A DNA stretch of 53,081 nt from a virus. Below the pieces are notes generated by a model. It made no database searches. It was not told where the DNA came from and worked only from the letters and a program-made list of their open reading frames with translations. The number at the start of each line of letters is the position of its first letter. Position 1 is the first letter of the stretch. A program made the position numbers and the translations under genes. The DNA lies in the IMG/VR virus record IMGVR_UViG_3300046517_000961, positions 1 through 53,081 of that record; one strand, 5' to 3'. Positions 10,405-53,081 of the stretch are shown in pieces.

Positions 10405-10724
10405 GGCGCCCGCTTGGCCTCGACCCATGACTCGCCGAGCCGCTTGATCACGCCGAGATCGTGCGTCTTGGCGGCCTCGACGAGCTCGCCGAAGCGATCC
10501 GGCTTGAAACACGCGAAGCAGCCCAGGCGCGCGAGGTTCGCGACGTCGCCGCCGGCCTTGTCGTACGCCGTGTCGTCGCACGTGACGGCCTGAAAGAGCG
10601 CGATCTGCACGCAGATCAGCAGCGCCCGCCAGGGATCCATCGGCCCGTACCGTGCCTGAGACAGCAGCAGCCGTTGATGCGTCAGGCACAGATCCGGCAT
10701 GACGATCGTCGGCCTCTCCGTCAC
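10401..10724 (-). CDS. Hypothetical protein with Cys pairs
   Basis: 107 aa. Early CLTH and central GCFACFKPD could together form a zinc site; the rest is helical (WRALLICVQIALFQAV, FGELVEAAKTHDLGVIKRLGESW). ATGA overlaps at both ends tie it to the ParB-like gene upstream. No family recognised. Confidence 0.65.
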   Translation of the reverse strand: MTERPTIVMPDLCLTHQRLLLSQARYGPMDPWRALLICVQIALFQAVTCDDTAYDKAGGDVANLARLGCFACFKPDRFGELVEAAKTHDLGVIKRLGESWVEAKRAP

Positions 10725-12121
10725 GCGCGCCCCTTTCGGGCCTTCGCCTTCGCCGGCGCCGCTTTCGTCTTGCCGACGAGCCGCGTCTTCATGCGTTCGG
10801 CTTTTTCCCAGGCCGCCAGGTCGAATCGGAATCGCTTGCCCGTCCGCGTCAAGTCAGCGCGCGAGCCGAGAGGATGCCGCGCGATCCCGTGCAGCGCGAG
10901 CACGGCGGCCGCGGTCGCGTCGCTGAGCTTGACGCCCGTTCGCTCTTGGACGTTCTTCACGTCATATTTGCCGAGGGCCTCGAGCACGAGCTCGGCTGTC
11001 AGCCGGGCATTCGAGACGATCGCCCTGATGAGCGCCGGCATCGCGGCGCGCTTCAGCTTGCCCCAGGCGAGATCGGCCTGCCGGCGTTTCTCATTCGCCG
11101 GATCGACGCGTCGCGCGCTCGCCGGTTCGCGCGCGTCGTCCTGCTGCAATTCCGGCCAGTGTTTCGCGCAGCTCTTGTCGCGGCAGACGTCGACGAGGCG
11201 CGTCGGGCCGGCGTGCACGACGACGGCCCTTTCGGTGTGATCGCACTTCTTATTCCCGACGCGGCCCGTCACGGGCCGATAGTCGCCGGCGGCCAGGACG
11301 CCCTTCGGCACTTCGAAGGCGCCCTCGGAGATCGTGAGGATCTTGCCGCCCGTGTCGTCGGCGCGCTTCACGAGGCCGGCGAGCTCCGGAATCGCCTCTT
11401 GCACGGCCTCGTCGCGCGGATCCGCGACCGTGTGATCTTGGATCCATCGTTGCAAGTCGCGCACGGGCCCGACGGCGTCGCGCAGCGCCGGCCAGTCGGC
11501 CGTCTCGATGCGCCGCAGCGCCTCACGCCCGAAGAGCGAGGTATAGCAGGCCGCCTGCAGGGCCTCGAGCTGCAGCCGTTCCGGCAGCCGCGACAGCAGC
11601 TCGGCCTGCTGCGTCGTGAGCGCGTCGGCGCCGAAGGCCTTGCGCGCCGTCGCGCCGAGGCTCGCCAGCTTCAGCCGGCGCCGCACGTGCGATTCCGGCA
11701 GCCCGATCCGGGCCGCGACGGCCGCCGGCGTGCGCAGCGCGCGATCGGCCGCCTGCAAGCTGGCGATGCCGTCCGCCTCGTCGAGCGGGTGCATATCCTT
11801 GCGTTGGATGTTTTCCTCGAGCGCGATCGCGAGCGCGTCGGCGTCGCTCAGCGTCCGGACGGCCGCCGGCACGCTCAACAGGCCGACGGCCAGGGCCGCG
11901 CGGTACCGCCGCTCGCCGCAGACAATGAGGTACTGCCCTGCCGCTTGCCCGACGTCCGTCTTCGGCCGCACGACAAGCGACTGCAAAATGCCATCCTTCG
12001 CGATGCTCGCCTGCAGCTTCGCCTCGTCGGCGTCATCATGCCGCCGCGCGCCTCGAGGATTCCGATCCCACGGCTTGATGTCGCTCACTTGGATCTGCTG
12101 CACGTCAACGGCTTCGATCAT
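10721..12121 (-). CDS. ParB-like partition protein (ParB/Spo0J N-terminal domain plus HTH)
   Basis: 466 aa. Residues 8-110 are a ParB/Srx-type domain with GERRYRAA at 69-76, the CTP/parS-dependent clamp motif, and ENIQRKDMHPLDEA at 103-116. An HTH follows (PAAVAARIGLPESHVRRRLKL, 132-152), as in chromosomal ParB. A Cys/His cluster (CDHTE...VCRDKSCAKH) lies in the middle and a Lys/Ala-rich tail ends the protein. No ParA gene was found. A perfect chromosomal-type parS lies at 40821-40838, which makes real partition or clamp loading plausible. Some phage ParB-like proteins are instead nucleases, so biochemical role is open. Confidence 0.85.
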   Translation of the reverse strand: MIEAVDVQQIQVSDIKPWDRNPRGARRHDDADEAKLQASIAKDGILQSLVVRPKTDVGQAAGQYLIVCGERRYRAALAVGLLSVPAAVRTLSDADALAIALEENIQRKDMHPLDEADGIASLQAADRALRTPAAVAARIGLPESHVRRRLKLASLGATARKAFGADALTTQQAELLSRLPERLQLEALQAACYTSLFGREALRRIETADWPALRDAVGPVRDLQRWIQDHTVADPRDEAVQEAIPELAGLVKRADDTGGKILTISEGAFEVPKGVLAAGDYRPVTGRVGNKKCDHTERAVVVHAGPTRLVDVCRDKSCAKHWPELQQDDAREPASARRVDPANEKRRQADLAWGKLKRAAMPALIRAIVSNARLTAELVLEALGKYDVKNVQERTGVKLSDATAAAVLALHGIARHPLGSRADLTRTGKRFRFDLAAWEKAERMKTRLVGKTKAAPAKAKARKGRA

Positions 12122-12370: not shown

Positions 12371-12958
12371 TCAGCCCTTCGCGCCGCGCACGACCGCGTC
12401 GACCGCGCGGCCGACGAGGGCGCCCGAATACGGTAAGAGCGCCCGCGCGGCGTGCGTCTTGACGCGCTCGACGAGCTCGAAGCGGCGCCCGGCGTGCATC
12501 TGCTGCCGCTCGACGTGCGAGAGCTCGGCATAGGCGGCCGCGGCCAGCCGACGCAGCTCGGCGTGCAGCTCGGCCGCGCTGATCTCGGTCTGCCGGGCCC
12601 GGGCCTTCCGCGTCGCATCTTTCGCCCGCTGCGCGAGCACGCGGGCCCGCGAGGGCTGATGCTTCAGGTATTCCACGATCACGAAGCCGCCGGCCCCGTC
12701 GGCCTCGAGCCAGCCCGGCTCGCCGGACGGCAGCGGCAGCGCCATCGCGAAGAGCACGTCGGCCGGCCGGCGATCGCCTTTCAGGTATTTGACGCGCAGC
12801 GCGTCGACGTGTCCGTCGGTCAGACCGCGGTTACAGACGGCGTGCAGCTCGACGAGCAGCGCGAAGACGCGGCCGAGGCCGTTCGGGCCGAGCTGCCGCG
12901 CCGCGTGCAGCGTGCGGGCGTCGTCGTCGACGTCGTCAGACAGGCGGATCCAGGGCAT
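12371..12958 (-). CDS. Phage replication-organiser-like protein (winged-helix type)
   Basis: 195 aa. The opening MPWIRLSDDVDDDARTL, then GRVFALLVELHAVCNRGLTDGHV and WLEADGAGGFVIVEYLKHQPSRARVLAQRA, matches the pattern of phage replication-module proteins (a winged helix followed by a basic helix), which I recall as DnaD/replisome-organiser-like. The C-terminal half is helical and basic. It starts about 12 bases after the -10 of the promoter at 12971-12999, leaving a leader of only a few bases. Family assignment is moderate. Confidence 0.65.
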   Translation of the reverse strand: MPWIRLSDDVDDDARTLHAARQLGPNGLGRVFALLVELHAVCNRGLTDGHVDALRVKYLKGDRRPADVLFAMALPLPSGEPGWLEADGAGGFVIVEYLKHQPSRARVLAQRAKDATRKARARQTEISAAELHAELRRLAAAAYAELSHVERQQMHAGRRFELVERVKTHAARALLPYSGALVGRAVDAVVRGAKG

Positions 12959-13003: not shown

Positions 13004-15592
13004 TCACGCCGTCGCCTCGGCCGTCTGCGGCCAGGTGATCGCGTCGTACGGCGGCAGCGTGACCGTGAGCCGGCCGCCTTGTACGAGGATCTGCGCATCG
13101 GCCTCGGCCGCCACGGCTGGATTGTGCGTCACGAAAAACACGTGATCGAAGCCGCCGCGCTCGTGCACGCGCCGAAGCATCGTCATATAGCGCAGGGCCG
13201 TATCGGGATACAGCGCGCTCGTCGTCTCGTCGCGGAAGCACGTCCGGATCGCGATGCGACTGTGATCGTTCACGTGCAGCGCGAGCGCGCACTTCACGGC
13301 CTCGTCGACGAGGATCTTTTCGCCGCCGCTGAGATCGCCGATGTCACGCGCGTGCCGGCTGTCGGTCGCATCCCATACTTTCATCTCGAAGACTTCTTTA
13401 AGGCCGCCTTTCGCGCGCGCGTCCTGCGTCACGATCTCGATCGTGAATCGCTGCGAGCCGTAGCACGTCGCCAGCAGATCATTCGCCCGCTCACTCACGA
13501 GCGGGCCCGCGGCGTCGATCTCGAGCGTCGGCAGCCCGTCGCGTGACGTCGCGGCCGCCAGAAACGACCATTCGACGAGCTCGCGATCGAGCGCGACGAG
13601 CGCGGCCTGCACGGCCTCGAGCTCGACGCGCCGGCGCTGAAAGTCGTCGACACGGGCCCGGGCGGCCGCAGCCTCGGCGGTCAGCCGGGCGCGCATCTCT
13701 ACGGCGGCCCGCTGCTCGGCCTCGCGCTGCGCGAGCTGCGCGATCGCGGCCGCCGCCCGGTCGGCGGCGCCGGCGTCGGCCGCGGCCTGGCCGGCGAGCT
13801 GCTCGAGCGCCCGCTCGGCCGTTTGGACGCGCTGCAGGGCCTCGGCACGCCGGGCCTTGATACCGTCGAGCCGGCCGACGTGCTCGGCCTGTAGGGCCGC
13901 TGCGGCCCGCTCAGCGTCCGCCAGGAAGTCGGCCCGGTCGGCCTCGAGCTGCTGCCGCTGCTCGGCCGCGATGGCCTTCGCGCTCGTCGCCGTGAGCGAC
14001 GAGATCGCGATCGCCTTCGTGAGCTCGACGTCGAGCGCCTCGAGATCCTTCGCGAGCTCGTCGGCCCGATCCTGCGCCGTCGCCAGGCGCGCGACACGGT
14101 CGCGGGTCTTATTGCGATCATGATCGAGGATGGCCGCTTCGGTGTCATAGAGCGCCACGTCCGCCGCGCTCAGCGCGGCCCGTGCGATGCGGAAGGCCTC
14201 GACGGCGCGCGCGAGTCTTGGCTGAGCCTCGTCGCAGCGTCGCTGCGTCGCCTCGAGCGCCGGAATCGAGGCACGGGCCTCGGCCGCTTGACGGACGAAG
14301 GCGCAGGCCGCTTCGGCGCATTTCGCCCCGAACGGCACGCGGTCAATCAAGGCCGCCGAGGCGCGCGCCGTCTCTAGCGTGCGACTCACGTCGAGATCGT
14401 GCACGGCCTGCTGCGCCGCGTCGCGTTCTCGGTTCCCCTGATCGACGGCCGCCTGCGCGTCGGCCAGCGTGCGCCGCTGCTGATCGCGCGTTGCCTCGAG
14501 CTGCGCGAGCGCGGCGCCGGCGGCCTTGATCTCTGCGGCCCGCGCCAAGATGTCGCGATTGTTCGCGAGCCGCGCCTCACGGTCGGCCCTGGCGACGCTA
14601 TGCGTCGTGCGCGCATCGCCGACGCGGGCCTCATGCCCGGCGTCGAGCGCCTCGTCGGTCGGCAGCCGGCGCCCCTGCTCGAGCAGCCGCTCGAGCAGCG
14701 TCTCGAGCCGGCCGGCCTGCGCACGGTTCGCCGTTTGATAGACGCCATGCTCGAGCACAAGATCGGCCTCGAGGCGCGTCACGTCGGCCTCGGCGCCGCG
14801 CTGCTGCTCCTGTAGACGCGTCCGCTCGGCGACGCGACCGGCGACGGCGTGCTGCTCGTCGACCGCGGCCGCGGCCGCCTGCCGGGCGTCGGCGACGTCG
14901 CGCACGAGCCGCTCGAGCCAGGCGCCGGCGTCGGTCAGCTCGACCTGTAGCCGCTGGCCGTCGGCCTCGAGGGCCGCGGCGAGCGCCGGCGCCGTCTCGG
15001 CGGCCAGCCGGGCGCCGAGTACCTCGAGCGCCGCCTTGCGTTTCTCGACGGCGCGCACGAGCTCGAGCGCGGCTATCGACCAGGCCTCATACTGGCCGAG
15101 GCCGAGCAGCTCTTGAAAGAGCTCCTTGCGCTCGCGCGCGCTCAGATCTGAAAACGAGCCGCGGCGATTCTGCGCCGCGAAGGCCGTCGCGAGCAGGACC
15201 GGCAGCGACGGAAACCGGCGATCGACTTCCGGCGCGTAGGTCGACACTTTGCCGTCGTTGAGCGGCCGCCAGCCGCCGGCGATCCACGCGGACAGCGTCG
15301 CCGCGCTCTTGTGCGTCTGCCCGTCGATATTCACCCGGGCCCGGTACGGCGTGTCGAGCGTATAGTCGGCTTCGATGTAGGCCTCACGCTGATTCGTGTA
15401 GTACGACAGGTCTTTCTCGCGCGTCGGGAATTGCCGATGCAGCGCCGCGATCGCGCATTCAATCAAGCCCGTTTTGCCTTCGCCGTTCGGGCCGACGATG
15501 GCGACGACGCCGCGCGGCAGCGTCGACGCGTCGAGCGTCACGGCCTCGCGAAACGTAAAGAGGCCCTTCACAGTCAGACGATCGAGTCTCAT
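13004..15592 (-). CDS. sbcC: SbcC/Rad50-like SMC-family ATPase
   Basis: 862 aa. Walker A GPNGEGKT near residues 34-41 follows the usual RLTVKGLFTFREAVTLD start. A long Ala/Arg/Glu-rich coiled coil occupies about 180-690. The ABC signature LSGGEK is near 780 and a Walker B-like segment, FRDETTSAL, follows, with VFFVTHNP as the His switch. The mid-coil Cys pair is CAEAAC, not the CxxC of a canonical zinc hook. With the SbcD-like gene it should process DNA ends or hairpins during replication and recombination. The small zinc protein between the two is unusual. Confidence 0.92.
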   Translation of the reverse strand: MRLDRLTVKGLFTFREAVTLDASTLPRGVVAIVGPNGEGKTGLIECAIAALHRQFPTREKDLSYYTNQREAYIEADYTLDTPYRARVNIDGQTHKSAATLSAWIAGGWRPLNDGKVSTYAPEVDRRFPSLPVLLATAFAAQNRRGSFSDLSARERKELFQELLGLGQYEAWSIAALELVRAVEKRKAALEVLGARLAAETAPALAAALEADGQRLQVELTDAGAWLERLVRDVADARQAAAAAVDEQHAVAGRVAERTRLQEQQRGAEADVTRLEADLVLEHGVYQTANRAQAGRLETLLERLLEQGRRLPTDEALDAGHEARVGDARTTHSVARADREARLANNRDILARAAEIKAAGAALAQLEATRDQQRRTLADAQAAVDQGNRERDAAQQAVHDLDVSRTLETARASAALIDRVPFGAKCAEAACAFVRQAAEARASIPALEATQRRCDEAQPRLARAVEAFRIARAALSAADVALYDTEAAILDHDRNKTRDRVARLATAQDRADELAKDLEALDVELTKAIAISSLTATSAKAIAAEQRQQLEADRADFLADAERAAAALQAEHVGRLDGIKARRAEALQRVQTAERALEQLAGQAAADAGAADRAAAAIAQLAQREAEQRAAVEMRARLTAEAAAARARVDDFQRRRVELEAVQAALVALDRELVEWSFLAAATSRDGLPTLEIDAAGPLVSERANDLLATCYGSQRFTIEIVTQDARAKGGLKEVFEMKVWDATDSRHARDIGDLSGGEKILVDEAVKCALALHVNDHSRIAIRTCFRDETTSALYPDTALRYMTMLRRVHERGGFDHVFFVTHNPAVAAEADAQILVQGGRLTVTLPPYDAITWPQTAEATA

Positions 15593-15822
15593 GATCGCTC
15601 CGATTCTTCGACTAATCGAAACACCTCGCGATCATTGACCACGTTCGGCCGCTCGCCAGGATTCAGAGCCGCATGAAGAAACCAGACAAAGGCCCCGCAC
15701 GCGTCGCAGCGGTGCGTCTGCGTGCCGTACCACTTCCACCTATGAGGACTACCAGTCATCGGACACGGATCCGTCGTGCGCCCTGCGTCAATCTTTATCA
15801 GTGGAATTAGTGGAATTCTCAT
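15589..15822 (-). CDS. Small zinc-binding protein inserted in the sbcDC operon
   Basis: 77 aa. CPMTG..H, then THRCDACGAFVWFLH gives Cys/His pairs compatible with one zinc site. ATGA overlaps on both sides place it between the SbcD-like and SbcC-like genes, so the three are translated together. It could be a complex subunit or specificity factor; no family is known to me for it. Confidence 0.7.
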   Translation of the reverse strand: MRIPLIPLIKIDAGRTTDPCPMTGSPHRWKWYGTQTHRCDACGAFVWFLHAALNPGERPNVVNDREVFRLVEESERS

Positions 15823-17177
15823 GGCAGCAGCTCCCGCCCAATTTCGGCAATGCGTGATAATGCCTCATGCTGCCAGTCTGCGCAAGGCCGATCGTCGAGC
15901 TGCGCCGCCTTGCCGGCCAGCGCCGGCGTCCACTCGAGGCCCTGCCGCCGGGCGTAGGCCTCGAGCTTCGCGACGAGCGTCGGCGCCGCGACGACGTCCG
16001 GCGCGCGGATCTCGCGATCCTGCGCCGGCACGGCCTCGATCTTCAGGCTACGCGCCTCGGCGAATTCGGCGTGAATGTGCGCGACGTTGAGCGCGGCCGC
16101 CTCGGCCCGTTTGTAGGTGTAGCGGACGCGCACGTCGGCGCCCGTGAACCTCGTCGGCAACGGATCGCCTAGTTCGATCGTGTGAACCGTGATCGGCGAT
16201 CCGCCGACGATCCGATATGTGAACCCAAACGGCGAGAGCTCGCCCTCGATCTGAAACATCGCCGGCACGTGCAGCGGCTCGAACCGCCAGCCGTTGAACG
16301 CCAGGCCCGGGCCCATCCGGTTCTCGCGCCAGCGTGCAACGACGACGCCCTTCGGCTCGAGCTCGCCGAAGTCCATGCGGCAGATCGATCCGGCATAGAC
16401 GGCGCGCCCGATCGCTTGATGCTTATGAATGTGATTCATCGCGACATAACAGTCGGGCGGCAGCCGCTCGAGCATCGCGGCGTCGAGCTCGATGTCATTC
16501 CCGATCTGCGGCTGTCCCACGCTCGAGATCGCGCCGGCGATATTCGCGTGCCCGGCGAAGACTTTCAGGGCCCACGGGCCCGCGGCCTCGAGCTCCGCGG
16601 CCGCCTGCACGACAAGGCCGTCGAGGGCCGCGCGCGCCGCCTGGCTGATCTCGTCGGGCGGCGTGCCGGCGGCGACGAGCGCGGCCTTGTTCGGATACGG
16701 CAGCGTGAAGACGGCGAGATCCATCCGGCGCGATGGCGCGTTGAGCGCATCGCCGTACCGATTCGGGCCGAGGATCGGCGTCTCGATCCGCAGCAGCTCC
16801 GGACGCTGCGACACGTAAATCGGGTGCAGGGTATTCAGCCGTGCGAAGACGTCGAGCTCGCCCGGCAGATCGTGATTCCCGCGCACGATCACGACCGGCG
16901 CGAGCTCGGCCATTGCGATCGCGCGCGCGTGCAGCGCGTTCCGCGTGTCCGGCTCGCTCACCGAATGAAATAGATCGCCGGGCCAGATCCAGGCGGCGAG
17001 GGCGCGCGCTGAGCCTGGCTCGCCGGCGGCATAGACGCGATCCGGCTCGACGTTCTCGAGCGCGATGCGTCGCCCGATGGCGAGGGCGGCGTCGAGCGCG
17101 GCGAGCTGATCGTGACTGCGGGCGTCGACGCGGGCGTGCGTGTCGCCGATATGAATGATCGCAATGCTTCCCGGCAT
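15819..17177 (-). CDS. sbcD: SbcD/Mre11-like nuclease (metallophosphoesterase)
   Basis: 452 aa. The five metallophosphoesterase motifs appear in order: GDTH (11-14), GDLF near 67, RGNHD near 98, AGHANIAGA near 205, and NHIHKHQ near 245. They bind two Mn ions and cut DNA ends. The C-terminal 150 residues form the capping domain. AAGGAG lies just before the ATG at 17177. It is followed by the zinc protein and the Rad50-like ATPase, its expected partner. Confidence 0.92.
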   Translation of the reverse strand: MPGSIAIIHIGDTHARVDARSHDQLAALDAALAIGRRIALENVEPDRVYAAGEPGSARALAAWIWPGDLFHSVSEPDTRNALHARAIAMAELAPVVIVRGNHDLPGELDVFARLNTLHPIYVSQRPELLRIETPILGPNRYGDALNAPSRRMDLAVFTLPYPNKAALVAAGTPPDEISQAARAALDGLVVQAAAELEAAGPWALKVFAGHANIAGAISSVGQPQIGNDIELDAAMLERLPPDCYVAMNHIHKHQAIGRAVYAGSICRMDFGELEPKGVVVARWRENRMGPGLAFNGWRFEPLHVPAMFQIEGELSPFGFTYRIVGGSPITVHTIELGDPLPTRFTGADVRVRYTYKRAEAAALNVAHIHAEFAEARSLKIEAVPAQDREIRAPDVVAAPTLVAKLEAYARRQGLEWTPALAGKAAQLDDRPCADWQHEALSRIAEIGRELLP

Positions 17178-34161: not shown

Positions 34162-34572
34162 CTACTGCCAGGCGCCGTCGACGGCCAAGCCGATCGAGAT
34201 CACGGCCGCGCCCTGATCGGGGAAATTCCCGTCGAGCGATGTCACGATCGCGCTCGACTGCTCGAGCTTGCTCCCGCCCTGATAGCGGCCGACCGTGATC
34301 GCCGTGCCGGCGCGCATCGCATCGCGGAGTCGGCCGTAGCCGCTCGCCGTCGGCACGTAGAGATGCGACAGCGTGACGTCTGAGCTGTAGCGCCCGGCGA
34401 TGATCCGCCGGTTCCGACTGATCTTGCTCGACACGTCGATCGCCGCGGTCGCTTCCTTAAAATCGACGTTCCGCTGCGACCCGACGACGACGAGCGTCCC
34501 GAAGCCGTTGTCGACGTACAGCAGGACGTCGGTACCATTCATTTCGCCGAACGGGCCCGTGGGTAGAGGCAT
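34162..34572 (-). CDS. Major tail tube protein, copy 1 (downstream)
   Basis: 136 aa, start MPLPTGPFGEMNGTDVLLYVD. LVVVGSQRNVDFKEATAAIDVSSKISRN and SSDVTLSHLYVPTASGYGRL follow the TP901-1/phi13-type tail tube pattern: beta strands with a hairpin rich in Ser and Asp. It differs from the gene at 34617-35027 at only two residues (Ala for Asn and Gln for Glu near residues 95-101). It lies just before the chaperones, the normal location for the tube gene. Confidence 0.85.
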   Translation of the reverse strand: MPLPTGPFGEMNGTDVLLYVDNGFGTLVVVGSQRNVDFKEATAAIDVSSKISRNRRIIAGRYSSDVTLSHLYVPTASGYGRLRDAMRAGTAITVGRYQGGSKLEQSSAIVTSLDGNFPDQGAAVISIGLAVDGAWQ

Positions 34573-34616: not shown

Positions 34617-35027
34617 TTACTGCCAGGCGCCGTCGACGGCCAGCCCGATCGAGATCACGGCCGCGCCCTGATCGGGGAAATTCCCGTCGAGCGACGTCAC
34701 GATCGCGCTCGACTGCTCGAGCTTGCTGCCGCCTTCGTAGCGACCGACCGTGATCGCCGTGCCGTTGCGCATCGCATCGCGCAGTCGGCCGTAACCGCTC
34801 GCCGTCGGCACGTAGAGATGCGACAGCGTGACGTCTGAGCTGTAGCGCCCGGCGATGATCCGCCGGTTCCGGCTGATCTTGCTCGACACGTCGATCGCCG
34901 CGGTCGCTTCCTTAAAATCGACGTTCCGCTGCGACCCGACGACGACGAGCGTCCCGAAGCCGTTGTCGACGTACAGCAGGACGTCGGTACCGTTCATTTC
35001 ACCGAATGGGCCCGTGGGTAGAGGCAT
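34617..35027 (-). CDS. Major tail tube protein, copy 2 (upstream)
   Basis: 136 aa, 134 identical to the adjacent copy at a shift of 455 bp. By hand I count about 17 base differences in 411, mostly third-position, including TAA versus TAG stops. So the copies are old enough to have silent changes but the proteins are held constant. Both have intact starts and stops. Mixed tubes or gene dosage are possible reasons for keeping both. Confidence 0.85.
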   Translation of the reverse strand: MPLPTGPFGEMNGTDVLLYVDNGFGTLVVVGSQRNVDFKEATAAIDVSSKISRNRRIIAGRYSSDVTLSHLYVPTASGYGRLRDAMRNGTAITVGRYEGGSKLEQSSAIVTSLDGNFPDQGAAVISIGLAVDGAWQ

Positions 35028-39393: not shown

Positions 39394-40064
39394 AGGTGCA
39401 CCACGCGACGCGTCGGATCGACCCACAACGATCCGCCCTGCTCGTAAATCGAGCGGCCGAGGCCGCGCACGAGATCGTCGGGCCCAAACCGCACGGCCCG
39501 GGCGAGCGCGCCCGTCATGACTTGGCACGAGCCGGCCGAGTCGATCTGCGTCAGGCCGGCCTCGAGGGCCCGGTGATAGGGCGGAAACGGCCCGAAATTC
39601 TCGCCGTTTTTGATATGGCCCCAAATGTCGTAGAAGTCGCCGACGGCGGTAAAACACATCGGCGCGATGGCCGGGTGCGCCGCGTCGAGCTGATCGATCA
39701 GGCCGATCATGGTCGCGGCATCCCAGGCGAGATCCATCTCGACGTAGACGAAGACGTCGACGGTCGGCTCGAGGGCCTCGAGCACGCCGTTACAGACCCA
39801 CGATAGGGCCTTCCAACGGGCCGGATCGTCGACGCTGCCCCAGGCCGGGCCGCCGTGCGCCCGTTTGATCACCTGCGCGCGTCGGCCGGCCGTGAAGTCG
39901 TGCAGACGTGACCAGGTATCGTCGAGGCTGTCACCTTCGGCGATCACGAGCACGAGCTGATCGCCGCGGGCGGCGAGCGAAGCCTCGAGCGCGTCGACCT
40001 GGCCGAAGTACCGCGGCAGATAGTGCGCGCCGTTGCGGACCATGCCGCCGAGCGCGACGATCAT
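39390..40064 (-). CDS. Glycosyltransferase-like protein (GT-A)
   Basis: 224 aa. MIVALGGMVRNGAHYLPRYF, LVLVIAEGDSLDDTW and VFVYVEMDLAWDAATMIG form the strand-DxD-like arrangement of GT-A enzymes, with EMD as the likely metal site. GHIKNGENFGPFPPYHR and QVMTGALARAVRFG follow. It resembles the capsule-associated mannosyltransferase-like group. ATGA overlap with the GT2-like gene. Confidence 0.7.
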   Translation of the reverse strand: MIVALGGMVRNGAHYLPRYFGQVDALEASLAARGDQLVLVIAEGDSLDDTWSRLHDFTAGRRAQVIKRAHGGPAWGSVDDPARWKALSWVCNGVLEALEPTVDVFVYVEMDLAWDAATMIGLIDQLDAAHPAIAPMCFTAVGDFYDIWGHIKNGENFGPFPPYHRALEAGLTQIDSAGSCQVMTGALARAVRFGPDDLVRGLGRSIYEQGGSLWVDPTRRVVHL

Positions 40065-40792
40065 GCCGTCACCTGCTCAGCGGCGCCGCTGCGAATGATG
40101 TCGTCGAGGCCGAGCGGCTCGCAGAGCCGCAGGAAGTCGTACGAGTGCGACTGGCGCCAGATCCCGCGGCCGATCGTATTGCCGCCGAACGTCACCTCGC
40201 GCCGCCATTTCCGCTCGTAATTGACGCGCGCGATCTCATGCCGGTGATGATACTCGCCAATCTGATCGGGCGCGTAGCCTTTCATGGTCCCGTTACACAA
40301 ATGCTGAATCCCGCACGTCGCGACCGTCGGGTGAATGCCGGCGAGCGCGAGCCGGTCTTCGTAGTCGACGTCGACGTACCGAAAGTACAACGGGCTGATC
40401 GTCGGATCGTAGAGGCCGACGAGCTCCCGGCAGCGATCGCGGTACGTCATGACGCCGAGCGAGTCGTCGATCAGAAAGTCGCCGGGCGTCGCGACGAATC
40501 GCGCGAGGCTGTCGGGCGCGAAGACGACGTCCTCGTGCGCGATCACGCGCTCTTCGCCGACGTGCTGGAGGTACCAATTCACGGCGGCCGCCTCGCAGCC
40601 CCTCGAGGCGCCCAGGTCGATCCGCGTGATCGGACACGTGACGACGTCGAGCGCGGCCTCGAGCCGTTCGGGTGAGGCCGCCTGATCGATCAGGTACATC
40701 CGATCCGGCCGCAGCGTGCCCTCGAAGACTGAGCGCAGCATGCCGGCGAGTAAGTCTTGTCGATTGAACGTGGTAACGCAGAGATTGATCAC
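40061..40792 (-). CDS. Glycosyltransferase family 2-like protein
   Basis: 243 aa. INLCVTTFNRQDLLAGMLRSVFEGTLRPDRMYLIDQA is the standard GT2 opening. RGCEAAAVNWYLQHV and VIAHEDVVF, with D as the metal-binding acid, follow. FRYVDVDYEDRLALAGI matches the later acceptor-site region. It begins the four-gene glycosyltransferase run just after the parS site. The acceptor could be a virion protein or a host glycan. Confidence 0.8.
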   Translation of the reverse strand: MINLCVTTFNRQDLLAGMLRSVFEGTLRPDRMYLIDQAASPERLEAALDVVTCPITRIDLGASRGCEAAAVNWYLQHVGEERVIAHEDVVFAPDSLARFVATPGDFLIDDSLGVMTYRDRCRELVGLYDPTISPLYFRYVDVDYEDRLALAGIHPTVATCGIQHLCNGTMKGYAPDQIGEYHHRHEIARVNYERKWRREVTFGGNTIGRGIWRQSHSYDFLRLCEPLGLDDIIRSGAAEQVTA

Positions 40793-40820
40793 GGGCCCGA
40801 CTCCCCCTCGAGGCCGGCAG

Positions 40821-40838
40821 GTGTTCCACGTGGAACAC
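40821..40838. promoter_or_regulatory. parS-type ParB binding site
   Basis: GTGTTCCACGTGGAACAC is a perfect 18-bp palindrome. Its core TGTTCCACGTGGAACA (40822-40837) is of the chromosomal parS class (B. subtilis consensus TGTTNCACGTGAAACA). It lies in the 109-bp gap between the decoration-like and GT2-like genes, beside a strong hairpin. The phage encodes a ParB-like protein at 10721-12121. I found no second perfect copy. Confidence 0.9.
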
Positions 40839-40839
40839 A

Positions 40840-40871
40840 GCGGCGGCCCGCATTGTATGCCGGGCCGCCGC
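40840..40871. repeat. Strong hairpin beside parS
   Basis: GCGGCGGCCCG (40840-40850) and CGGGCCGCCGC (40861-40871) are perfect 11-bp complementary arms with a 10-nt loop that can pair further through CAT/ATG. It starts 2 bp from parS. There is no T-run on either side, so a role as RNA processing or transcription attenuator is uncertain. Confidence 0.55.
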
Positions 40872-40901
40872 CGTCGTGCTAACTGATTCTGCCGTCGACG
40901 C

Positions 40902-41402
40902 TTACGTCGTCGCGGCAGCGTTCGGCAGCGCCTCGAGCCCGCCCAGGGCGGCCGCGGCCGAGAACTTGACCGTATCCGTCCCCGACCGGCTCAGCGTCGG
41001 CGTCAGCGACAGCCGGACGTATTCGCTCGCCGCGCCCAGGTCGACGTCGACCTCGATCTCAGCGTAGACGACGCTGCCGTCGTTGTTGCCCGTGATCGTC
41101 GTCGCGGCCGGATCGTTCACGCCGTCGACGCCGTAATCGGTGTACGTCGAGTCGTCCGGGCTCGACTCGACGACGGGCTGCACGATCGCCGTCTGCCCCG
41201 ATCCGAGCGTCGCCGCCGCGACGATGATGTACTTCAGCGACATTGGCAGACGATTCAGAAATCGGTCGATGCTCTGCCCGACTTGCTTCACGCCCGATCC
41301 GCCGTTGCCCGCGCCGACCGTGATCGGTGCGAGTGCGTTCTTGCCCTTGAGGTACGCGCCGACGTTCTGCGCGACCGATCCCCCGGCTCCCGGTTCTTTC
41401 AT
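40902..41402 (-). CDS. Probable capsid decoration/minor virion protein
   Basis: 166 aa. AAGGAG lies 7 bases before the ATG at 41402, a strong ribosome site that implies high expression. The N-terminal half is helical, followed by YIIVAAATLGSGQTAIVQP and SVVYAEIEVDVDLGAASEYVRLSLTPTLS, a beta-sandwich. A gene placed directly after the major capsid gene with such a site is usually a head decoration or tail tube-like protein. Family not recognised. Confidence 0.6.
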   Translation of the reverse strand: MKEPGAGGSVAQNVGAYLKGKNALAPITVGAGNGGSGVKQVGQSIDRFLNRLPMSLKYIIVAAATLGSGQTAIVQPVVESSPDDSTYTDYGVDGVNDPAATTITGNNDGSVVYAEIEVDVDLGAASEYVRLSLTPTLSRSGTDTVKFSAAAALGGLEALPNAAATT

Positions 41403-41476: not shown

Positions 41477-42685
41477 TTACCAGGCGACGTCTTTCAGAAT
41501 CGCGATCGCGAGATCGTGTCGCGCGACGAGATCCACTTCGTTGATCACGCGGAGCAGCGTGAGATCGCGCTGAAACGCCGAGATCGTCTTGCCGGCCGCG
41601 TCGACGAATGTCGCGTCCTCGGAGAGCGCGATCTGGAGCTGCGGCCCCTGGCCGAGCGCGAGCTCGTCGCCGTCGGCGAGATAGACCTCGCTCTTGACGT
41701 TGCCGGCGCCGAGGTTCACGGGTACCTGCGTCGAGACTTCGTACGGGATCCCGAAGAGCGTCCCCTTCGAGAGCTCGTCGCGATAGACGAAGGCGCCCGT
41801 CGTCGTCTGGATCCCCATCAGCGCGTTGAGCGACCGCGGGGAAAACGTCCACCACGGCTTTGTCATGGCGACGTTAGCCTGCATGAGCTTCGTGATCAGC
41901 CCGAGCAGATCCGGCGTGATCGTCGCGTTCGTGATCCCCGTCGACGCGACGACGTTCGCCGCGTTGGCCCAGTAGCGCAGCCCCTTCGGCGCCGAGCCCG
42001 TGCCATCGCCGCGCAGGAACTTCGAGTCTTCACCGATCGTCATCTGACGCAGCGCGTCATTCCGCACGATGGCCTGCACGCGCGGGCCGCCGCGACGCAT
42101 GAGCGTGTTCGAGACAGGAATCAAGACTTTTTCCTGCTTCGCGATCAGCGCGACTTGACCGAAGGCCTGCTCGGTTTCCGCGATCGCCGCGACTTCCGCG
42201 CCCCACGACACGGCCGCGCCGCTCGTGAGCTTCGGGACGTTGACTTGTCCGGACGAGAGCTCTTGCACGTTGTCGATATGCTTCCGTACCGTCGTGCGCG
42301 GCAGCAGCAGATCGATGATCTCGTCGGACATTTCCGGCGCGAGCAGGAAGCCGCCCGACGCCGCATCGCCCGACGTGAGCGCCTTCGCGATCATCGGATC
42401 GGCCTTGAAGTCTTTCGCGCCCTTCGTCGCCAGGTCGATCGCCTGGCCGACGTTGCCCTTCGTCAGCGCGAGGGCCGCGCAGACGCCGCCGAACGCCAGG
42501 CCGGCGCCCGACGCCGCCTTGCCACGCGCCGCGCTGTCGCGCTCGGCGAGCTCGCGCACCTGATCGGCGCCGCGGGCCCCGATCGTGTCCTGCACGTCTT
42601 TGAGCGCCTTCGCCACGGCCGCCCCGCATTCGTTGCGAATGAAGGCCTGCAGGTCGCTCTTTGTGAGTCTCTTCTCTTCTGCCAT
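41477..42685 (-). CDS. Major capsid protein, HK97 fold
   Basis: 402 aa. A charged helical N-terminal domain of about 100 residues (delta-domain-like, removed by the protease) precedes GGFLLAPEMSDEIIDLLLPRTTVRKHIDNVQEL. Then come WGAEVAAIAETEQAFGQVALIAKQEKVLIPVS, the spine helix and P-loop-type segments of HK97-fold proteins, and FLRGDGTGSAPKGL. GGGAGA lies before the ATG. It follows the protease/scaffold gene, as expected. Confidence 0.92.
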   Translation of the reverse strand: MAEEKRLTKSDLQAFIRNECGAAVAKALKDVQDTIGARGADQVRELAERDSAARGKAASGAGLAFGGVCAALALTKGNVGQAIDLATKGAKDFKADPMIAKALTSGDAASGGFLLAPEMSDEIIDLLLPRTTVRKHIDNVQELSSGQVNVPKLTSGAAVSWGAEVAAIAETEQAFGQVALIAKQEKVLIPVSNTLMRRGGPRVQAIVRNDALRQMTIGEDSKFLRGDGTGSAPKGLRYWANAANVVASTGITNATITPDLLGLITKLMQANVAMTKPWWTFSPRSLNALMGIQTTTGAFVYRDELSKGTLFGIPYEVSTQVPVNLGAGNVKSEVYLADGDELALGQGPQLQIALSEDATFVDAAGKTISAFQRDLTLLRVINEVDLVARHDLAIAILKDVAW

Positions 42686-42761: not shown

Positions 42762-43742
42762 CTAGTCGACGATGCGGCCGCGCGCCGCGTCGATCGAATC
42801 TTTCACGGCGTCGTGAATGCTCGCGCGGAATTCGTCGCGCGGCATCCCGAGAAACTGCTCGAAGTCGTCGAGCTCTTCGGGCTCGTCGTCGAGCAGGCCG
42901 CCGAAATCGGCGTCGTCGCTGAGCGACGCCACGCGCGCCGACTTCTGATCGTCCGTCTCGTCTGCCGGCGTGTCGGCCTCTTCCTGATCGGCCGGATCCT
43001 CGTCGGCGGCCGCCATCGGATCCGCGAAGCCGAGCTCGACGAGCGTGCCGTGCGCGTCGCGCATGCACTTCGCCGCGGCCTTGCCGGCGGCCAGGTCGGC
43101 CGCCGAGTGCCGCGCGCCGGCCTTCGCGGCCTTGTCGGCCGCGTCATCATCGGCCGGCTTGTCGCCGCTCTTCGGCGGTTTCGCGAAGCCGAGCTCGACC
43201 ATCTTGCCGTGCGCGTCGACGACGTGCTGCGCGGCTTTCTTGCCGAGCGCGAGATCCGCGGCCGAGTGCCGGGCGCCCGACTTGCGGCGCGCCTCGAGGC
43301 TGCGCATCCCGATCGAGACGTCGTCGGCTTCGCCCTGCATGCAGGCCATGACGATCGACTCGAGGCTCGCGATCGAGCCGTGGAGCTGCGCGCAATGTCC
43401 GAGCAGGACCGAGCAGCGGGCGTCCTCGACGGCCTCTTCGGCCGCTTCGCCGTCGGGCGTGTCGGTCGGCGATTCGGTTTCGGCCGCGATGAGCGCGTTC
43501 ACCTGCTCGAGCGCCGACGCGACGACGCTCGCGTGCAGCACGAGCTGCGCCTTCATGGCCTGATACTGCACGAGCTCGGCCGCCTCTTCGCCGGCCTCGT
43601 CGTTGCCGGCGGCATCCTTCCGCGGCGTCTCGACCTTGACGACGTCGCACGTCTGCGCCTCGAGCGCCGTCTTGTGCCCGTGCCCCTGCGCGCACGCGTA
43701 CGGATAGTCCGCGTCGACCGAAGCGACGTGTTTCGCAGTCAT
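42762..43742 (-). CDS. Putative nested scaffold protein (in-frame internal start)
   Basis: 326 aa if translation begins at the in-frame ATG at 43742 (MTAKHVASVDADYP). GAAAGGG lies 8 bases upstream, as good a ribosome site as those of independent genes here. It would encode only the helical, acidic C-terminal half of the protease gene, as lambda Nu3 does inside C. Proposed from the start signal and domain boundary; not proven. Confidence 0.55.
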   Translation of the reverse strand: MTAKHVASVDADYPYACAQGHGHKTALEAQTCDVVKVETPRKDAAGNDEAGEEAAELVQYQAMKAQLVLHASVVASALEQVNALIAAETESPTDTPDGEAAEEAVEDARCSVLLGHCAQLHGSIASLESIVMACMQGEADDVSIGMRSLEARRKSGARHSAADLALGKKAAQHVVDAHGKMVELGFAKPPKSGDKPADDDAADKAAKAGARHSAADLAAGKAAAKCMRDAHGTLVELGFADPMAAADEDPADQEEADTPADETDDQKSARVASLSDDADFGGLLDDEPEELDDFEQFLGMPRDEFRASIHDAVKDSIDAARGRIVD

Positions 43743-44504
43743 GCTGTCAGCCCTTTCGATGGATGGGGGAAACTTCAGATCGCCGATCGTGAGCACGAGC
43801 GACCGGCCGGCCGGATCGGTGGCGGCGCGCAGCCGCTCGACGGTGTCGCGTTCGCGACGGTCGCGCTGATCGTGCGATTCGCACGTGTCGAGCCATCGCT
43901 CGGCCCAGGCCTTCATCGGCGTGAGCTCGATCCGGGCCGCCTTCGCCTGCGCGAGCGCCTCGGCATTCGCCGGCACGGGCACGCAGCTCCACTCGAGCAG
44001 CTCTTGCCGCTTGAAGTCGATCCCGCCCTTGCGGTCGCTCGACATCTCGTAATCGGTCGGCCGGAAGCCGACGCTGGCCGCGCGCATGTAGCGCCCGGCG
44101 TAGAGCTGAAACATCATGAAGGCAAACGGATAGATCTCGCGCTCGACAAATTGCGCGCGGGCCCAGAGCTCGCCCGGCGTGCCCGGTACATTCCAGACCT
44201 TCACCGATTGCGCAACGGGCGGATTCCATTGATCGTGTCCGAAGAGCACGACCGGATTTTCGATGTAATTCTCGAGCTGCCAGCCGTCGAGCGCGATCGT
44301 GTCTTCCATGCGATCGACGCTGTCGGTCGAAATGCAAATATCGAGCAGCCGATTGACCTTATCGATCGCCCTGACTTCGCGCAGCGCGCCCGACTTCAGC
44401 ACGGCGAGATCGTCGCAGGCCTTCGGCTCGAGGCGTCCGGCCGCGATGCCGAGCGCGAGCTCGTGGAATTTCTGATCCGAGACGAAATTCAAGCGGCTTG
44501 CCAT
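42762..44504 (-). CDS. Prohead protease (S78-like) fused to scaffold-like C-terminus
   Basis: 580 aa from the ATG at 44504 (AAAGGGGA upstream). NPVVLFGHDQWN (about 82-93) supplies the catalytic His, RAASVGFRP (about 138-146) the Ser, and ELLEWSCVPVPANAEAL is the closing family motif. Residues 255-580 are helical and acidic and contain two copies of an ARHSAADL..GK.AA unit, ending LDDFEQFLGMPRDEFRASI. The C-terminal part is scaffold-like, and an internal ATG at 43742 may start a separate scaffold. Confidence 0.88.
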   Translation of the reverse strand: MASRLNFVSDQKFHELALGIAAGRLEPKACDDLAVLKSGALREVRAIDKVNRLLDICISTDSVDRMEDTIALDGWQLENYIENPVVLFGHDQWNPPVAQSVKVWNVPGTPGELWARAQFVEREIYPFAFMMFQLYAGRYMRAASVGFRPTDYEMSSDRKGGIDFKRQELLEWSCVPVPANAEALAQAKAARIELTPMKAWAERWLDTCESHDQRDRRERDTVERLRAATDPAGRSLVLTIGDLKFPPSIERADSMTAKHVASVDADYPYACAQGHGHKTALEAQTCDVVKVETPRKDAAGNDEAGEEAAELVQYQAMKAQLVLHASVVASALEQVNALIAAETESPTDTPDGEAAEEAVEDARCSVLLGHCAQLHGSIASLESIVMACMQGEADDVSIGMRSLEARRKSGARHSAADLALGKKAAQHVVDAHGKMVELGFAKPPKSGDKPADDDAADKAAKAGARHSAADLAAGKAAAKCMRDAHGTLVELGFADPMAAADEDPADQEEADTPADETDDQKSARVASLSDDADFGGLLDDEPEELDDFEQFLGMPRDEFRASIHDAVKDSIDAARGRIVD

Positions 44505-52444: not shown

Positions 52445-53001
52445 GAGAGCATCGGCTCGAGCGGCCCGGCGTCCTGGCGCGCCGGTCGCGCCGGTCGCGT
52501 CCGGTACTCCGAGTCGTGCGGACAGTCGCGCGTCGTGAGAAAGCCGGCGAGATCCGGCTCGCGCTCGAGGATCCGCCGTGCGTAAAATGCCCGGTAATTG
52601 TTATTCAGCTTGTAGACGTCGCCCGTCGTCTCGAGGTAGCGGAAGCGAAGAATTTCCCAGGCCGCCCCGATGCCAAACCGCGGCAGCCCGCGATCCCGCA
52701 TGTAGCGCAGCACGCGGCACGCCATCCGGTACACCTGCGGATTGAGCGCGTGAAACCGCTCGGCCCGCTCGATGAGTGTGCCGGCGCGCGGATCCGGATC
52801 CTCGGCGAGCGGGATCAGGTCGGCCGCGTCGAAGACGAGCGCGAGCTGCTCGGCCGCCGGCGGCGCGTCGGCATCCCAAAACACGGGCTCGTCGTGCTGC
52901 ACCAGATAGCCGCGATGCCGGCCGCCGTGGCCCGGTTCACGGTCGCAGGCGAGCCGCAGCTTCGGCGAGATCCGACCGCAGAACCAGGCCTCACTCGGCA
53001 T
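52441..53001 (-). CDS. Conserved phage protein of unknown function (KLNNNYRAFYAR type)
   Basis: 186 aa. FCGRISP...LACDREPGHGGRH near residues 7-29 is a CG...C..PxGHxGxH zinc-type motif. ALNPQVYRMACRVLRYMRDRGLPRFGIGAAWEILRF and TGDVYKLNNNYRAFYARRI is a pattern I recall from many phage genomes near replication or packaging genes, with no assigned function. Its start lies in the terminal repeat (same as base 53), so it joins the ASCH-like gene operon across the circle. Confidence 0.75.
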   Translation of the reverse strand: MPSEAWFCGRISPKLRLACDREPGHGGRHRGYLVQHDEPVFWDADAPPAAEQLALVFDAADLIPLAEDPDPRAGTLIERAERFHALNPQVYRMACRVLRYMRDRGLPRFGIGAAWEILRFRYLETTGDVYKLNNNYRAFYARRILEREPDLAGFLTTRDCPHDSEYRTRPARPARQDAGPLEPMLS

Positions 53002-53081
53002 CGACGTACTCGAATTGAATCCGCGTCACGCGATCCGTCCGCCGGCTGCCAGGATTGATCGCCCGAAACATCCGAAGAAAC
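52956..53081. repeat. Terminal direct repeat, right copy (circular closure)
   Basis: Identical to 8-133. It includes the first 46 bp of the gene at 52441-53001 and part of the ASCH-like gene, so the two ends should be merged when the genome is drawn. Confidence 0.9.

Follow-up and report, generated by a model that had tools for sequence, protein, structure and literature searches.

A chromosome-type parS site in the virion operon of a phage and its possible use as a loading site for host ParB

Why a phage should carry, among its virion genes, a site spelled like the centromere of bacterial chromosomes, and which ParB would read it there, are the questions raised by this locus. The window analysed here is the whole stretch of 53,081 bases. 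Its ends share an exact 126-bp repeat (8-133 = 52956-53081), which makes it probable that the contig represents a complete circular genome, approximately 52.95 kb in length. No tRNA genes were found in the window, and no relatives were found in genome contigs with capsid alignment and portal queries.

A pattern scan of the window located GTGTTCCACGTGGAACAC, a perfect 18-bp palindrome at 40821-40838, with no second match at up to three mismatches; 100 shuffles average 0.01 matches. General chromosomal parS is the 16-bp palindrome TGTTYCACGTGRAACA. The 16-bp core of the window site is an exact TGTTCCACGTGGAACA, from which the palindrome extends to 18 bp, and it matches the chromosomal parS form. 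The assignment to the parS class made in the first-pass annotation is therefore upheld, and the match is exact and unique. Palindromes of at least 18 bp are expected by chance in such DNA (mean of 1.4 and maximum of 4 in 40 simulations of the GC-rich window); the unusual point is that the palindrome spells parS, not the 18-bp palindromy itself. Judged by its sequence, the window site is a genuine chromosome-type parS, single and non-random. The site and its surroundings comprise the following features:

40821..40838, strand (.): parS palindrome GTGTTCCACGTGGAACAC, from the pattern scan, with a 15-nt core kept in contig L134
40839..40874, (-) strand: strong GC-rich stem-loop, immediately 5' of parS in the transcript, from folding (z -3.2)
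40061..40792, (-) strand: glycosyltransferase-family-2-like protein of 243 aa with a GTG start, 3' of parS (Pfam Glycos_transf_2, E 0.0016)
40902..41402, (-) strand: 166-aa protein, 5' of parS and adjoining the capsid gene (phrog_5707, E 7.6e-6; PHROG category: unknown function)
41477..42685, (-) strand: major capsid protein of the HK97-type family (Pfam Phage_capsid, E 9.4e-39)

The parS is intergenic, lying in the virion operon in a 109-base gap (40793-40901) between 40902-41402 (-) and 40061-40792 (-). The Glycos_transf_2 match of the latter is under the curated cut-off, with no PHROG match, and a role of the 166-aa protein as a decoration protein is a guess. The predicted stem of the stem-loop intrudes 2 nt into parS, and a U-run is absent afterwards. 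Elsewhere in the window, tandem major-tail-protein-like genes (34162-34572 and 34617-35027, (-) strand; family assigned from the first copy) are 96% identical across 414 bases, and a 160-base stretch is doubled at 42971-43288, with copies 74% identical, within the protease/head gene 42762-44504.

Relatives were sought in viral contigs using the ParB, capsid, terminase and 166-aa proteins as queries. The same phage recurs in L122 and L133, the compared DNA of which is 100% identical to the window, in L136 and L137 (terminase protein 100%) and in L161 (166-aa protein 100%). The only independent relative found, L134, is a 6-kb contig with 78% nucleotide identity, a capsid protein 89% identical and a counterpart of the 166-aa protein 86% identical; this fragment is without the parB region. 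In L134, the intergenic gap flanked by the corresponding genes carries TGTTCCACGTGGAAC at offset 64 from the upstream stop, the same offset as in the window. A search for the 16-mer in related phages, as the first-pass annotation had proposed, is thereby answered in part, the site being kept at 15 of the 16 core bases with one core base changed. Beyond TGTTCCACGTGGAAC, 36 of the 86 aligned bases of the two gaps are identical (approximately 42%) and the next longest common word is 6 nt; in 2,000 shuffles, a common word never exceeded 12 nt. A stem-loop of unrelated sequence stands at the same place before the L134 site and is weak (z -1.65, against -3.2 in the window). No site at up to two mismatches was detected in the DNA covered of L135 (capsid 36%) and of the ParB-bearing L123-L132, which are distant and partly covered and have no bearing on the site in close relatives.

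Across the virus contigs of IMG/VR, the exact 16-mer TGTTCCACGTGGAACA is present in at least 120 stretches, whereas two scrambled palindromes matched to it in composition and CACGTG core occur in 2 stretches each. These counts bear on the reading of the site as a chance palindrome, or as an RNA hairpin without a protein partner. About 1.4 palindromes of this length are expected, and the transcript would fold at the site; yet parS is kept base by base in L134 where the neighbouring stem-loop sequence differs, and scrambles that are just as palindromic turn up in the virus collection at least 60 times less often. On the L134 conservation and the scramble counts together a chance palindrome is rejected, and because the sequence rather than merely the pairing is conserved, a hairpin as the sole reason is rejected as well, leaving this reading extremely improbable.

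A candidate partner for the site is encoded by the phage itself, close to a replication gene:

10721..12121, (-) strand: ParB-like protein of 466 aa (ParB_N, HTH_ParB, TIGR00180, motifs)
12371..12958, (-) strand: replication-initiation-like protein, close to parB (phrog_2447, E 1.4e-15)

The product of 10721-12121 matches Pfam ParB_N (E 4.7e-21) and HTH_ParB (E 1.9e-6), with TIGR00180 above cut-off, and carries the ParB CTPase motifs GERRYRAA and ENIQRKDMHP, which contain GERR and ENxQR, respectively; the first-pass description of a ParB-like gene with GERRYRAA and a helix-turn-helix (HTH) is confirmed. The protein comprises a ParB_N CTPase fold, a diverged ParB HTH and a C-terminal half without a family match, for which no plasmid match was detected at E 0.01. 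Neither ParA (PF13614) nor a tyrosine integrase (PF00589) was matched in six frames of the window at E up to 1, which bears out, as far as these two models reach, the earlier statement that neither was found; no ParA was found among the scanned window proteins either, a subset of the genes. SbcC-like and SbcD-like genes lie near the parB-like gene (13004-17177, (-) strand); the SbcC/SbcD complex cuts hairpins formed at palindromes.

The presence of parS and a ParB-like gene in one genome, the latter with both CTPase motifs and a ParB-type HTH, would fit a ParA-less ParB/parS clamp that organises or partitions the phage genome. The contact residues argue otherwise. For Caulobacter ParB, the available text of Jalal et al. 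2020 (PMC7383237) gives eight parS-contact residues (Q162, G170, K171, S172, R173, N178, G201 and R204), and terms R173 and G201 absolutely conserved across extant ParB orthologs. Aligned with Caulobacter ParB, the phage protein has P162, G170, L171, P172, E173, R178, Q201 and E204, and keeps one of the eight (G170), whereas Bacillus subtilis ParB keeps eight and Thermus ParB seven. Moreover, the gene lies approximately 29 kb from the site as written (approximately 23 kb around the circle the other way), so that parS is not close to parAB as it is in a ParABS locus. The translation, inspected by eye, is without an N-terminal ParA-binding motif of the LGRGL-like form described in the available text of PMC12704722. 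With one of eight contact residues kept, the phage ParB-like protein is probably not the partner of the window parS, and the mismatch makes it more likely that it reads a different site; the clamp formed with the phage's own protein is accordingly rated as quite unlikely. An own site was sought by eye among 19 perfect palindromes of at least 14 bp, and no repeated family tied to ParB was found. Phage ParB-like proteins may read DNA via residues other than those mapped in Caulobacter. The first-pass annotation had implied that parS and the phage protein form a pair, and had offered spreading of phage or host ParB on the DNA. The substitutions (among them R173 to E, G201 to Q, N178 to R and K171 to L) and the scarcity of ParB_N in parS carriers (1 of 120 listed) tell against the pair; spreading of host ParB is the favoured reading.

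That scarcity was determined in the 120 listed IMG/VR records with the exact site, in which ParB_N was matched in 0 of 40, 1 of 50 (G060, locus L020) and 0 of 30, one in the 120 listed; L134, also searched, gave 0 matches. The same search is positive in 10 of 14 control genomes, and since the carriers vary in length and include many fragments, absence of ParB_N there is weak evidence. The L020 ParB showed no BLAST match with Caulobacter ParB. Terminase_6N, one among several terminase families, was detected in 18 of the 59 listed carriers longer than 22 kb, 15 of them above cut-off. That contamination by host chromosomes accounts for every virus match was rejected on the single ParB_N match among the 120 listed and on the finding that in several groups parS has a terminase, capsid or portal gene as its neighbour; contamination by host DNA is likely in some records.

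The 120 loci listed hold 127 sites. By a crude ORF tiling rather than annotation, 52 of the 127 lie mostly outside tiled ORFs, compared with 11% of random positions, and 75 lie at least half within one. Within the DNA covered, 116 of the 120 loci listed have a single exact site. A further match at up to three mismatches is present in 20 of 121 loci (the 120 listed and L134), sorted by eye into 4 with an exact site again, 10 with a parS-type variant and 6 with neither; the variant TGTTTCACGTGAAACA is found in 6 of the 10, and 4 of those 6 are near-identical relatives. Two arrangements stand apart. In L105 (4324-10457), five exact parS sites fall in 6 kb of a virus contig, the first within a helicase-like gene preceded by one that is glycosyltransferase-like. 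In L071 (3372-3411), L049, L099, L108 and L109, two different parS variants lie 23-24 bp apart, the pair being upstream of a terminase gene in L049, L071, L108 and L109.

The position relative to virion genes recurs in groups of carriers. Among loci with homologs of the L029 capsid protein (identities as low as 56%), parS follows the capsid gene in 9 of 9, within 25-60 nt in 8 of 9. Homologs of the L071 terminase occur in 16 loci, and in 8 of them parS precedes the gene by 36-162 nt, four of the eight being near-identical and two coming from partial alignments; for homologs of the L071 portal protein, parS is at most 125 nt away in 4 of 15 loci. All of these loci were chosen for an exact parS, and the fractions apply to carriers. 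The first-pass annotation had placed the site in the virion operon and called the position odd for a partition locus: the place stands, intergenic and near the capsid gene, and similar positions recur in these contigs and in the named phages KPP25 and Arian described below.

Such positions could point to an effect on transcription or chromatin, with ParB in the late operon acting as a roadblock, silencer or anti-silencer of the genes after parS and the stem-loop marking an operon boundary. The window parS between a stem-loop and a gene start would suit this, as would the sites shortly after capsid genes and before terminase genes, and the ParB relatives KorB and VirB act on transcription in the available text of the sources. 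Taken by itself, the intergenic place in the virion operon fits a transcription role equally well. However, the parS of other carriers lies inside ORFs or apart from recognised virion genes, and we regard this role as very unlikely to be the main one.

Named phages were searched with an N-padded 18-mer per variant by blastn against 50,697 phage records (INPHARED). The TGTTCC-type 18-mer matched 108 records and the TGTTTC-type 315, counts that include numerous close relatives and duplicates; the scramble matched none. As single 18-mer matches have E of 0.6 to 8, they prove nothing one by one, and the contrast with the scramble carries the result. The leading hosts are Mycobacterium (27) and Pseudomonas (20) for the TGTTCC type, and Listeria (87), Microbacterium (62), Arthrobacter (34) and Gordonia (25) for the TGTTTC type, the leading hosts of either variant missing from the ten commonest names of the other. 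The TGTTCC matches include the Microbacterium phage Tyrumbra, and Microviridae occur with both variants (15 records for TGTTCC, 14 for TGTTTC). In the available text of a Pseudomonas aeruginosa study, the altered ParB half-sites are 23 GTTCCAC and 2 GTTTCAC (PMC10419367).

Escherichia is outside the ten commonest names of both lists, despite at least 399 Escherichia records in the collection, and the TGTTTC-type 18-mer went unmatched across 20,395 E. coli records, a search near the E-value limit in which only the full 18-mer is detectable. To our knowledge, E. coli is without chromosomal ParABS, and so is Klebsiella. Against this host rule, the TGTTCC site is present in 10 Klebsiella phage records; most are relatives of approximately 345 kb with the site in a gene, and these sites may therefore reflect chance or borrowed use. 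Klebsiella phage RaK2 and its relatives (JQ513383.1, AB897757.1 and others) have the exact TGTTCCACGTGGAACA within genes, for example that of the baseplate wedge. Many short records bear the name 'Listeria phage LM 4-11-1 / 4-14-1'; in one of them, OR846756.1, parS was counted at ten places over both strands and a ParB match is present, so that these records look like pieces of bacterial chromosome.

Fourteen named phage records, picked by choice and not randomly, were inspected. All 14 have a site at up to one mismatch (that of Prince is mismatched to the 16-mer), and ParB_N was matched in 0 of the 14. The matched site is intergenic in 8 of the 13 annotated records, namely KPP25 (with ORF018 on one side and the gene of the major structural protein on the other), Arian (following the gene of the major tail protein), Lana, Woes, Bacchae, DSS3P8, BcoS-136 and bajarodino virus 3, and in or overlapping a gene in 5 (Tunturi_2, Prince, B103, P100plus and the Xenohaliotis phage); XD2 is without annotation there. 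The inovirus bajarodino virus 3 (L157, PQ006097.1) holds six exact TGTTTCACGTGAAACA in 6,183 bases, with no ParB_N match.

Carriers thus include Bacchae and P100plus (Herelleviridae; Listeria/Lactobacillus) and the phi29-like Bacillus phage B103. We take the Herelleviridae of Listeria and Lactobacillus and the phi29-like phages to be lytic groups, which, together with the lack of a ParA or tyrosine integrase match in the window, makes prophage partition unlikely as a general reason for phage parS; a partitioned circular replicon had been the other reading offered by the first-pass annotation. The same phages would suit a decoy, in which replicated phage genomes titrate host ParB off the chromosomal origin and disturb segregation, SMC loading or division to the gain of the phage. 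An inovirus with six sites would fit, and in the available text on Salmonella genomic island 1 (SGI1), extra parS-like copies destabilise the helper plasmid (PMC10954446). From a decoy one might expect arrays, though, and a single exact site is the rule in 116 of the 120 loci listed; we consider it unlikely.

The explanation we favour, and hold to be moderately probable, is that the window parS is an orphan copy of the host chromosomal centromere that would load host ParB onto phage DNA. It draws on the site, its conservation in one relative and the enrichment in the virus collection, on how seldom carriers have ParB_N, and on how poorly the contact residues of the phage ParB-like protein match. 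Host ParB with CTP would recognise the window parS in the infected cell, close as a clamp and slide over the neighbouring virion genes, and the phage genome, coated with host ParB, would be handled as cargo by the segregation machinery (ParA gradient, SMC loading). The likeliest use would be to distribute the copies of the phage genome through the cell and keep them positioned and organised; alternatively, copies could be passed to daughters in a slow or carrier-state infection by a phage with no partition system of its own. Binding of the site by host ParB, which would require a host ParB of matching specificity, is by itself likely. Given binding, a benefit through positioning or segregation, as opposed to titration or gene control, is plausible but short of probable. 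It is ranked first, with titration and gene control after it, because ParB is known to act in this way and SGI1 does likewise with a plasmid ParABS.

By a narrow balance, we also lean towards a broader reading, in which a host centromere without a matching partition gene would be a general phage strategy among double-stranded DNA tailed phages, filamentous phages and microviruses. The site would recruit host ParB (with ParA and SMC), would lie beside capsid or terminase genes in several groups and would be a parS variant tuned to the host lineage, with the window phage as one member. Should orphan parS sites indeed load host ParB onto phage genomes, the chromosome segregation machinery would be a host factor for many phages, non-lysogenising ones included; parS would be a sequence-readable marker of ParB interaction; the parS variant would help to assign hosts to uncultured phages; and the effect of ParB, ParA or SMC on phage yield would be open to a simple test. 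Bacillus phage B103, with two parS sites and B. subtilis as host, offers a laboratory system.

The components of this explanation are already known: parS itself, the ParB clamp, and a mobile element that mimics parS. Titles and abstract starts of the literature covered, which did not extend to preprints and most subscription journals, gave no account of phages with an orphan chromosomal parS; a prior report may exist, for instance as a preprint.

Compared with known systems, the window phage shares with chromosomal ParABS the identical 16-bp palindrome, but its parS is on a phage, single, far from parAB and in a virion operon. With plasmid-prophages, such as P1 and the extrachromosomal mycobacteriophages, it shares a parS on phage DNA. 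Those phages encode their own parA/parB; the window phage, by contrast, gave no ParA match, and its ParB-like protein is mismatched to parS. Staphylococcus phage Lacachita resembles it in having a ParB-like gene with no ParA or integrase found, and differs in that no chromosomal parS is reported on it in the available text (PMC10286716). The closest parallel to an orphan mimic, that is, a parS without a cognate ParB gene, is SGI1, the parS mimics of which borrow the ParABS of IncC plasmids (PMC10954446, available text); in the window phage a ParB-like gene is present, with its contact residues mismatched. SGI1 mimics a plasmid parS, whereas the parS of the window phage is of the chromosomal type and known from sequence. 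Both are mobile elements with a parS, and the borrowing of another replicon's ParB, shown for SGI1, is what we propose here.
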